Below are positions 8,835 through 13,007 of a stretch of DNA of 64,000 bases, piece by piece. The position numbers and the translations under genes are program-made. The stretch covers positions 2,728,001 through 2,792,000 of the forward strand of contig NC_013216.1 of assembly GCF_000024205.1 (NCBI RefSeq). The letters are read 5' to 3'. The notes below the pieces were generated by a model. It was given only the letters and a program-made list of their open reading frames with translations. It was not told the DNA's origin and ran no database searches. This DNA is from Desulfofarcimen acetoxidans DSM 771. GTDB taxonomy: Bacteria; Bacillota; Desulfotomaculia; Desulfotomaculales; Desulfofarciminaceae. How positions within the stretch are numbered: the first letter of the stretch is position 1; each line of letters starts with the position of its first letter.

Positions 8835-10736
8835 CTAATCAGCTATCAGCTTCAAGGTATTGCTTCTGTAACCTAAAAGCATATTTATTTCTTTGACCAG
8901 CCCTTCGGCAGTCAAACCGTAAATATCCCTGAGCAGCTTGGGATGACCGTGCTCGATAAAATTATCAGGTATGCCTATGCAATGAGTCCTTGTCTTTAAA
9001 CCGCTTGCTGTCAGCAACTCCAAAACAGAACTGCCAAACCCGCCGCTAAGCATATTTTCTTCCACAGTTACCAACAAATTCGTATTGGCAGCCAAATCCA
9101 AAATGCATTTTTCGTCTAAGGGCTTAATAAAACGCGCGTTAACAACGGCAGCGTCAACGCCCTGTTGAGCTAAAATTCTTGCAGCGTCTTCAGCTACCTT
9201 GACCATGTTGCCTATGGCAATTATGGCTATATTTTTTCCTTTACGAACAACTTCCGCCTGTCCAATAGGCAATTCCTTCATTTCTTTATCCAGAACGCAA
9301 CCGGTACCAATGCCGCGCGGAAAACGAAGAGCACACGGGCCCTGAAACTTTACTGCAGTATTCAACATATGTTGAAACTCATTTTCATCTTTAGGTGACA
9401 TAATTACCAGGTTAGGTATCGGGCGCAGGTAAGACAAATCAAATAATCCCTGGTGGGTAGCCCCGTCATCACCAACAATACCGGCCCTGTCAACAGCAAA
9501 AAGGACAGGTAAATTTTGTAAACATACGTCATGAATCACCTGATCATAAGCCCGCTGTAAAAAAGTAGAGTAAATGGCCACCACAGGTTTTAAGCCTGCG
9601 CATGCCATACCAGCAGCCAGAGTAACAGCATGACCTTCAGCTATTCCGACATCAAAAAAACGATCCGGATAAATATTGGCAAATTTTCTCAATCCTGTGC
9701 CATCCGGCATGGCGGCAGTTATAGCCTGAATTCTCCTGTCTGTTTCCGCCAGTTTGACAATTATATCCCCGAAAACTTCCGTATAGGTGACAGTCCCGGT
9801 ACTGTTGATCACATCACCTGTTTCTATCTTAAAAGGCCCCACCCCATGAAACTTATCAGCGTTGCTTTCTGCCGGCAAGTAACCCTTGCCCTTCTGAGTT
9901 TGAACATGTACCAATACAGGTCCTTTACAGGTTTTAGCCTGCTTTAAAAGATTAACAGTAGCCTGGTAATTATGCCCGTCCACCGGTCCCAAATAAGTAA
10001 AACCCAGTTCTTCGAAAAGCATGCCCGGTACTACCAGGTATTTAAAGCTGTCCTTTAATCTGTCTATGACTTTTAAAACCTTGGGACCAATATTAGGGAT
10101 TTTTAACAGCAGCTGTTCAACTTCATCCTTGCTTCTGGAATACATAGGATCAGTGCGAATCCGGCTTAAATAACCGGACATAGCACCTACGTTAGGAGCT
10201 ATTGACATTTCATTGTCATTTAATACGACTATAAGATCCTTCTTAAGATGCCCGGCATGGTTTAATGCCTCAAAGGCCAGTCCTCCGGTCATGGCACCGT
10301 CTCCGATTACGGCAGCCACTGAATGTTTTTCCTTTAGATAATCACGTGCTATCGCAAAGCCCAAGGCGGCAGAAATTGAGGTGCTGCTGTGGCCTGTGCC
10401 AAAACTGTCATAGGCACTCTCAATAAGCCTGGGGAAGCCGCTGATACCACCATACTGGCGCAGAGTGGAAAACCTTTCCTTGCGACCGGTTAACAGTTTA
10501 TGTACATAACACTGGTGTCCTACATCCCAAATTATTTTGTCTTGAGGTAAATTAAAAACCCGGTGCAATGCCAGTGTTAATTCAACTACACCCAAATTAG
10601 GCGCTAAATGACCACCGGTTTCTGATACCGTCTCAATTATTTTTTGACGTATTTCTCCAGCCAACTCATTAATTTGGCTATTATCCAGCAGTCGCAAGTC
10701 CTGGGGTGTTTTTATCATGGCTAATAAACCGTTCAA
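8835..10736 (-). CDS. dxs: 1-deoxy-D-xylulose-5-phosphate synthase
   Basis: Condenses pyruvate and glyceraldehyde 3-phosphate in the first step of the MEP isoprenoid pathway. 633 residues from TTG at 10736, 5 bases after GAGGTGG; this gives an N-terminus [13 protein letters not shown] like relatives, whereas the GTG at 10745 overlaps the ribosome-binding site. The thiamine diphosphate motif begins GDGAMTGG (about residue 150), and the transketolase pyrimidine-binding and C-terminal domains follow. ispA lies upstream beyond oapA and the OLE RNA. Confidence 0.97.
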
Positions 10737-10747
10737 AATTACCACCT

Positions 10748-11335
10748 CTATTTTTGCTTAGAACAACGGCTCTTTTTACCGATTTTAATACCGGTTATGC
10801 CTTCCCACCATGCCATTATGCGTCCTACCGAGAAAATAACTTCATTGGCATGTTCAATAGCATATTTTTTACCAATTGCTTTACTACTGACGGTTATCGA
10901 AGCGATAAAACCAGTTAATAAAATATTAAGAACAAACTGATCCCAATCGTGCCGGTAAGCATAAATTTGAGAAGCAAGAGCAATACCAAGTGCTCCTGCC
11001 ACCGTTCCGGTTATATCTCCGACTACATCGTTGCCTATATTAGCTACTTTATCGGCATTTCTGATTAGATTAACTCCTTGCTGAGAACCAGGCACACGCT
11101 TAGATGCCTTGGCATGAAACGGTGCCTCCGATGCCGCAGTAACCGCTACACCTATAATATCACCCAAAATATTTATTAAAATAATAACTAACAAAATGGC
11201 AAATGATACCACCAGGCTGTTTAGTTTTCGGGTTAAAGTTTCTGATATCAAAGAAAAAACCACTGCCAGAGTAAATGAAATAATCCCAATAATTATAATA
11301 TAACTTATTGAAACAGAGGATCTACCGTTGGACAA
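10748..11335 (-). CDS. oapA: OLE-associated membrane protein OapA
   Basis: 195 residues with about four membrane segments: two near the N-terminus ([38 protein letters not shown]), one to two in the middle and one about 135-155. A conserved cytosolic-looking stretch ([30 protein letters not shown]) sits between them. The start is TTG at 11335, 5 bases after GAGGTGG. In Bacillus halodurans the OapA gene follows OLE RNA and precedes dxs, exactly this arrangement. The known role is to hold OLE RNA in a membrane ribonucleoprotein linked to cold, alcohol and Mg stress. The assignment rests on synteny, topology and length. Confidence 0.82.
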
Positions 11336-11344
11336 AAAACCCAC

Positions 11345-11997
11345 CTCATGAGCGGAACATATATGTAATGGTCAGTGACAATAGAACGAGTAAATGTTGC
11401 GGCTTAGGTCCAGCAGGATTTCCCAAACTGTTGCCGGCTGTCGCCATACCGGCGGTTTCCCATTAAAACAGTTTCCGTTACGTCACCGCAAACGGGGCTG
11501 GATTGCCACTTAGTCCGCACTATAATCCCCGTTCTACCCAAGAGACAGCCTAGAAGTTTTCCTTAACAGAATAAAACCTTTTTCTATCCTCTTTTGCAGT
11601 AAAAGTTTCAACCCCCAGGAGATAAAGCACGGGCCCATGCCATATCTCCTGAAAAACAAGTATTCACCAGTACCGCTCAAGGCAGGCTACGCTGCACGCA
11701 GCTTTCACCACATGCAGGTTTATATCCCAAGCCATAGTTTGTGCATGCCCCACAGGGGACAGCCTCTCCACATACTTGGGTCTCCACGGAAGCAGGGTCA
11801 AGTCTGCATGCCATTGCAGGTTGCCCTCCCACCTTAACTCCCAGTACCAACCCCCAACTGGGCGTCAGCAGCCAGCACCAGGAACTTCATCGCTGTGCCA
11901 TTGGCGGATTTTTAGGCCCGCCTTCAAAAAAGGTCATCCTGACTAGGATACTGCGTCACTTACCAAATAAATTTTAACAAAATAAAAGATTTGCTAG
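11345..11997 (-). ncRNA. ole: OLE RNA (ornate, large, extremophilic)
   Basis: About 650 bases between ispA and oapA on the operon strand. There is no credible gene in either direction, yet the stretch is unusually G+C-rich for an intergenic region here and full of short complementary segments (for example the CAGGAGATA and TATCTCCTG arms at 11616-11652). A good promoter lies just upstream at 12004-12032. Known OLE RNAs are about 600 bases, lie between ispA and the OapA gene, and occur in anaerobic or extremophilic Firmicutes. The position, strand, size and partner gene all fit. The 5' end is estimated from the promoter and the 3' end from the oapA ribosome-binding site. Two short plus-strand frames inside it look like chance. 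Confidence 0.85.
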
Positions 11998-12003
11998 ATG
12001 ATT

Positions 12004-12032
12004 ATTATATCATATTTATATTTTAGTTACAA
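12004..12032 (-). promoter_or_regulatory. Sigma-A-type promoter for OLE RNA/oapA/dxs
   Basis: Minus-strand TTGTAA (12032-12027) and TATAAT (12009-12004) are separated by exactly 17 bases, placing a start near 11997. It lies between the ispA stop and the OLE RNA, so OLE can be made apart from read-through. Confidence 0.65.
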
Positions 12033-12116: not shown

Positions 12117-13007
12117 CTAATGATCCCTGTTCACCACAAACTTAACCAGTTCTTTTAAAAAATTTGCCTTTTCACCAAATGGCTCAAGTGCATACAAAGC
12201 CTGTTCGGCGGAATAGCCGGCCAACCTGTAGGCTTCTTCCAGTCCGTACAGAGCCGGGTAGGTAGCCTTATTATTTTTTTCATCACTTCCTACCGGCTTG
12301 CCAGTCTTTTGCATATCTCCTGCCACGTCTAAAATATCATCAGTTATCTGAAAAGCCAAACCAAAGTGCTCTGCGTAATTTGTCAATGATTTCAGTTCTT
12401 CATCATCAGCACCTGACAAAACAGCCCCGGATCTGATAGCCGCCCGGAAAAGAGCCCCGGTTTTTTTAGTGTGTATATATTCCAGTGTACCGGCATCTAT
12501 CTCTTGATTAGCAGAAACTATATCTACAACCTGCCCGCCGATCAAACCGGTTGTGCCGGCCGCAGCGGAAATATCCGCAATTACCCTAACCACGTCTGCC
12601 GGAGCAATTCCATTTCTGCCCGACAAACCGGCTAACAATTGAAAAGACATGGTTAATAAAGCATCGCCGGCAAGTATGGCCATAGCCTCACCGAATACCT
12701 TATGATTGGTGGGTTTTCCCCGGCGGTAATCATCATCATCCATAGACGGTAAATCATCATGTATCAAGGAATATGTATGTATCAGCTCTAAAGCGCAGGC
12801 GGCAGGCATAACTTTATCGGCACTCCCACCCACTGCTTCCGCCGCAGCAATGAGCATCGCCGGTCTTAATCTTTTGCCCCCGGCAAAAATACTATAACGC
12901 ATAGCCCGGTGAATTATTTCAGGGCAACTGCTTTCCGGCAGCAAATATCGATTCAGCGCGGCATCGACCTGACCTGCTATTTTTTTCAATTCGTTTAGAA
13001 ATTCCAT
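12117..13007 (-). CDS. ispA: Polyprenyl (farnesyl) diphosphate synthase
   Basis: Head-to-tail condensation of IPP with allylic diphosphates. 296 residues with the first aspartate-rich motif in HDDLPSMDDDDYRRG (about 82-96), the chain-length region before it, and the second motif DDILD (about 222-226). GKRLRP near 45 binds IPP. Its ATG overlaps the xseB stop (TAATG). xseB-ispA-OLE-oapA-dxs form one isoprenoid/OLE operon. A short hairpin (GCTGC/GCAGC) follows the stop at about 12102-12117. Confidence 0.96.
   Translation of the reverse strand: MEFLNELKKIAGQVDAALNRYLLPESSCPEIIHRAMRYSIFAGGKRLRPAMLIAAAEAVGGSADKVMPAACALELIHTYSLIHDDLPSMDDDDYRRGKPTNHKVFGEAMAILAGDALLTMSFQLLAGLSGRNGIAPADVVRVIADISAAAGTTGLIGGQVVDIVSANQEIDAGTLEYIHTKKTGALFRAAIRSGAVLSGADDEELKSLTNYAEHFGLAFQITDDILDVAGDMQKTGKPVGSDEKNNKATYPALYGLEEAYRLAGYSAEQALYALEPFGEKANFLKELVKFVVNRDH

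Follow-up and report, generated by a model that had tools for sequence, protein, structure and literature searches.

A full-length OLE RNA, its partner gene oapA and a conserved putative promoter in the isoprenoid operon of Desulfofarcimen acetoxidans

Described OLE particles and the D. acetoxidans locus

OLE is among the largest bacterial RNAs, and its biochemical job is still unsettled in the literature. In cryo-EM models, two OLE molecules are joined through the loops of P4, P5.1, P6.1 and P9 (PMC12265935). Full-length OLE RNAs have been delimited at 390 bits and ~600 nt with a model different from the one used here, and "variant 1" OLE RNAs have been described with a shorter P7–P9 and often no OapB site (both PMC11332333). 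By analogy with Halalkalibacterium halodurans and two Clostridium RNAs, the D. acetoxidans OLE RNA may be made in large amounts and fold into a dimer, which OapA, a protein related to the CNNM metal transporters, would anchor at the membrane. OapB would bind one OLE hairpin, while a k-turn would be bound by OapC and stem P6 by bS21. Such a particle would help the cell to meet cold, alcohol, magnesium and carbon-source stress.

Desulfofarcimen is the newer genus name for Desulfotomaculum acetoxidans. The species is mesophilic, spore-forming, obligately anaerobic and recorded as Gram-stain negative, with acetate, n-butyrate, ethanol and n-butanol as substrates (PMC3035247). We analyzed a 64-kb stretch of its genome (hereafter, the window), and it is nearly certain that the isoprenoid operon of this sequenced, Desulfotomaculum-type sulfate reducer contains a full-length OLE gene there, with oapA next in line. 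The window RNA is a complete, ordinary OLE of a known kind in a known setting, and what the preliminary description had claimed is both correct and already known. Compared with the OLE RNAs of H. halodurans and Clostridium acetobutylicum, it is alike in full model length, in secondary structure, in the conserved P4, P5.1, P6.1 and P9 loops and in having oapA directly downstream, whereas it differs from known OLE by a G at the k-turn base equivalent to U84 and by a putative promoter conserved in its order. Overall, the identity and structure of the RNA, the gene order, the presence of partner genes and the conservation of the promoter-like sequence before OLE are established here.

RNA structure and contact sites

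Using cmscan, we located OLE (RF01071) at 11975–11359 on the minus strand, where 617 nt matched the model over its full length (1–616) with 502.1 bits and an E-value of 2.6e-144, against a gathering score of 50 bits. The preliminary description had proposed OLE for a structured-looking, gene-free gap of 650 bases and had suggested a covariance-model search, which bore the proposal out: RF01071 was the sole Rfam family to match at gathering score within the 64-kb window. The score also exceeds the published 390-bit line for full-length OLE, a line set with another model. The same search detected one OLE copy genome-wide (single contig of 4,545,624 bases) and none in 14 control genomes.

Next, we evaluated covariation in an alignment of 23 OLE RNAs, comprising the window, its sister genome (L043) and 21 relatives (of 34 with OLE). 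The structure was taken from Rfam and projected onto the window row of this sequence-based alignment, i.e., it was not derived from the 23 sequences. Paired cells made up 88.5% of the total, versus 38.4–46.2% when partners were slid by 1–3 columns, both sides had changed in 95 of 154 pairs, and none of 500 shuffles attained any of five covariation measures. P7 (66.7%) and the outer P9 (71.3%) were among the least well kept helices, which is partly an alignment effect, and a two-pair remnant at the P8 tip was hardly kept (10.9%). Covariation in these 23 sequences upholds the Rfam OLE structure. Two short open reading frames (66 and 78 aa) lie over OLE on the opposite, plus strand, as might be expected if the gap were coding sequence or just a plain untranslated leader; set against a full-length covariance match, covariation and the lack of any other Rfam family at gathering score, we gave this reading virtually no credence, dropped it on the strength of that match, and took both frames as spurious.

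Helix numbers were assigned from the helix order in the Rfam model and in PMC12265935. All four loop types of the published dimer contact are present in the window OLE, on the minus strand: the A-rich P4 loop region CCUAAAAAUCC (11906–11916), a dimer contact in the published structures, the P5.1 loop ACGCCCAGU (11857–11865), which would be the kissing-loop partner of the P6.1 loop CAAUGGCAUG (11807–11816), and the P9 loop palindrome GGGCCC (11631–11636), a putative symmetric kissing loop (roles from PMC12265935). The loop CGGUGACG of the hairpin after P12.2 (11481–11488, minus strand) was taken as P13 and would thus be the OapB site (site from PMC12265935). A k-turn, GC-GAUGAAG, at 11885–11893 on the minus strand is by analogy the candidate OapC site, in which the essential C85 (11892) is kept, whereas a G (11893) takes the place of H. 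halodurans U84. With this G, the U-G pair published for the C helix would be predicted to be lost; in H. halodurans, a U84A change weakened OapC binding, yet was tolerated in cells. Across 69 motif-matching loci, duplicates included, the base was T in 63, G in 4 (the window as L001, L043, L075 and L087) and A in 2. We also looked for the anti-Shine-Dalgarno mimic CCUCCU, which H. halodurans OLE carries in the right strand of P6 and the window OLE lacks; since the published H. halodurans P6 mutants M1–M3, in which CCUCCU is altered, still bind bS21, nothing was drawn from its absence.

Could this be a decayed OLE that has gone out of use? Its 502 bits lie a little below the best score in the order (551.6 bits), some P7 pairs are non-standard, and U84 is replaced by G. 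However, L075, L087 and the sister genome share this replacement, 140 of the 154 model pairs having letters on both sides are standard, and the conserved loops and partner genes have been kept, all of which makes decay very improbable.

Operon, OapA and a putative promoter

On the minus strand, the gene order is fchA-xseB-ispA-OLE-oapA-dxs-tlyA, reproducing the known OLE locus order xseB-ispA-OLE-oapA-dxs that the preliminary description had recognized; the frames after tlyA are, judging by their sequence, probably nadK, argR and recN. The flanking genes are ispA, encoding farnesyl diphosphate synthase (12117–13007, minus strand; NF045485, 382.9 bits, cut-off 275), and dxs, encoding 1-deoxy-D-xylulose-5-phosphate synthase (8835–10745, minus strand; TIGR00204, 884 bits, cut-off 466). 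Between the end of ispA at 12117 and the start of oapA at 11335 lies a gap of 781 nt, filled by OLE. A terminator candidate at 11356–11340, overlapping the oapA ribosome-binding site, was rejected (2 such sites found versus 1.6 expected; weak fold of −9.3 kcal/mol). Of 36 loci found by OapA, 34 have OLE immediately before the oapA relative, one of them (L022) cut by a contig end; the remaining two are uninformative on OLE, as their contigs reach only 131 and 296 nt upstream of the oapA match. In tblastn searches with the window proteins, ispA preceded and dxs followed oapA in 17 of the 36 (L002–L014, L018, L019, L023 and L024); elsewhere, the ispA or dxs side was missing, or the genes were different or too distant. 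One relative's OLE locus also carries, on its minus strand, a glmS ribozyme (RF00234, 75.5 bits; L025:1042–1194).

The gene after OLE falls in an open reading frame at 10748–11344 (198 aa) whose GTG start codon, at 11344, falls inside the ribosome-binding site. Since relatives and this site (Shine-Dalgarno region UGAGGUG, 11342–11348, minus strand) both point to TTG at 11335, that codon is the likely start, giving an oapA of 195 aa at 10748–11335 on the minus strand. In an alignment of 37 sequences, from which L033 was left out as a partial match, the motif EAPFHA and the DxxxD motif (D103, D107) were invariant in all 37; DxxxD is the motif that characterizes OapA in published work (PMC11332333). 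Above cut-off, neither Pfam nor NCBIfam gave a name to the 198-aa frame, and a PDB sequence search with OapA gave no match below E 0.5. Its AlphaFold2 model is helical (mean pLDDT 77.7), and the top PDB matches of that model were CNNM proteins (MtCorB; 7m1t and 7m1u) with probability 1.00, weak E-values of 0.022–0.26 and TM-scores of 0.50–0.55; the same CNNM match has been reported for H. halodurans OapA, and published work relates OapA distantly to the CNNM/MpfA metal transporters. While the predicted helices of the window protein overlay these CNNM structures, it is without a CBS or CorC_HlyC domain and without a significant Pfam CNNM match. The preliminary description had called the gene four-helix and OapA-like, and we identify the neighbor as OapA because of DxxxD, four hydrophobic segments (4–36, 33–71, 104–122 and 131–154) that agree with the four transmembrane helices of OapA, its conserved placement downstream of OLE and a predicted fold resembling CNNM, itself a weak match.

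A genome search for OapB and OapC, as proposed in the preliminary description, turned up candidate genes for both. The OapB candidate lies between map and infA (L040:1152–1433), and its best PDB match is 7k9b, "OLE-associated protein B" (E 1.4e-7). An OapC/YbxF-like protein is encoded between rpoC and rpsL (L038:1474–1722; PRK13602 at 88.8 bits, below the cut-off of 113, and the YlxQ family at 23.7), distinct from a separate YlxQ-like gene in L039. A bS21 gene is present as well. Alongside OLE and OapA, the genome encodes one MpfA-type protein (CNNM, CBS and CorC_HlyC; L042:1456–2796); this family is reported as less frequent alongside OLE, and the single copy falls within the usual range of none to one published for OLE-bearing species.

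The preliminary description had also placed a promoter, TTGTAA-17-TATAAT, just upstream of OLE, and it is found exactly there, in the extended form TTGTAA-17-TGaTATAAT (12004–12032, minus strand; TTGTAA at 12032–12027, −10 element at 12009–12004). It ends 28 nt before the start of the OLE model, and transcription would be expected to begin near 11997. Judged from this one genome, promoter-like sites in this region are little above chance (7 found versus 4.2 expected, sd 2.3). We therefore turned to 36 distinct loci, i.e., the window, L043, 15 relatives and 19 other genomes of the order, leaving out 18 distant loci, L052 (short flank) and 10 duplicates; only the best-scoring 30 of 101 OLE-bearing genomes gave loci, so the set leans towards well-kept copies. 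In 32 of the 36, a TATAAT lay no more than 70 nt upstream of OLE, versus 3.5 expected from dinucleotide shuffles, an excess that is not a probability since the loci are mutually related and not independent. The mean hexamer score was 10.0 of 12 versus 7.8, and TG preceded the −10 element of the best site in 33 of 36. In a first promoter test on 35 loci, only 3 of 18 more distant loci (L016, L020, L021 and L023–L037, whose taxonomic order is unchecked) had p ≤ 0.05, so the claim of conservation is limited to nearer loci. Taken together, the putative OLE promoter is more than chance and conserved among the nearer loci of the order, a conclusion that follows from conservation across loci and not from the single-genome scan.

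This conservation lends support to the earlier suggestion that the RNA may be made apart from ispA, and the promoter would let the cell produce OLE, plus oapA by read-through, independently of that gene. A genuine OLE RNA could instead arise only by processing of a long ispA-oapA-dxs transcript, with the upstream TATAAT idle, as the near-chance scan in the window genome and the H. halodurans cluster, published as one co-transcribed polycistronic RNA (cited in PMC12265935), would allow. Such co-transcription means that the promoter need not be the sole source of OLE RNA, but exclusive processing seems unlikely to us, given an extended −10 conserved in 32 of 36 loci and free-standing OLEs of relatives that have hairpins resembling terminators and promoter-like sites arranged in the same way. 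In the open literature searched, beyond whose scope lie the 2006 discovery paper and the 2023 review, we found no statement of a promoter of ole's own. The conserved promoter would be a modest addition to known OLE and a testable point on RNA made apart from ispA.

OLE across the order and a free-standing type

We then surveyed 113 genomes of the order. OLE was detected in 101, OapA in 100 and both in 96, with neither found in 8 (G040, G046, G047, G074–G077 and G110), OLE only in 5 (G010, G030, G032, G039 and G059) and OapA only in 4 (G044, G084 and G097, with oapA ≤250 nt from the contig start, and G106, partial); several of these exceptions sit at contig ends. In genus g38 (G074–G077, 92–96% complete), OLE and OapA were found in none of the four genomes, and a search for a CNNM (MpfA-type) protein gave no match in any of them, so a simple replacement of OLE by MpfA is a poor fit.

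In the genomes of family f5 and in G069, all beyond the window, OLE and oapA sit on separate contigs or the search returned no OapA. Nine genomes of the order carry such a free-standing OLE far from oapA, and these nine OLEs (L074 and L076–L083) form one clade with support of 100/100 and a stem of 0.53 in a tree of 33 whose bootstrap is not fully settled. In the four compared with the Rfam model (L074, L076, L078 and L083), only 2–5 nt stand in place of the outer P9 hairpin, and the loops of P5.1 and P13 are altered. All nine are preceded by a promoter-like site that scores 10 or 11 of 12, has its −10 element preceded by TG and ends 6–15 nt before the model start, and all nine are followed, a few tens of bases past the model end, by a hairpin and T-run, the hairpins being judged by eye. 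In the five genomes checked, the free-standing OLE lies 0.1–5 kb from rpmA. Three genomes with a displaced OLE (oapA loci L084, L085 and L086) still have oapA between ispA and dxs, with ispA-oapA gaps of 28, 283 and 55 nt. G031 has both types, an operonic one (L075, 518 bits) and a free-standing one (L074:3894–4489, 407 bits); the check for mis-binning, limited to rpmA count, GC, completeness and contamination, showed one rpmA, the same GC (50%) for the two stretches, and a genome 100% complete and 1% contaminated.

From these patterns, we consider it probable that in this order OLE is transcribed as a unit of its own within the isoprenoid operon, and that one lineage thereby gained a second, free-standing OLE type near rpmA. 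This type would carry its own promoter-like site and terminator-like hairpin, would have shed the outer P9 arm, which serves as a dimer contact in published work, and altered the P13 loop (the OapB site), and would have replaced the operonic copy in several genomes while oapA stayed. Since G031 keeps both, a single cell may contain two OLE particles side by side, or a mixed dimer. In the open literature searched, with key subscription papers beyond its scope, we found no statement of two OLE genes per genome or of a free-standing type. Though a modest addition to known OLE that lies outside the window, the free-standing type offers a natural test of which parts are needed, as it works, if at all, with the outer P9 hairpin missing and at a distance from oapA.

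The window's RNA is not of the variant 1 kind. The free-standing OLEs recall variant 1 in that the outer P9 hairpin is likewise missing, and the P13 loop altered, in the four inspected. They differ from variant 1 in scoring 399–448 bits, above the 390-bit full-length line that PMC11332333 drew with its own, other model.
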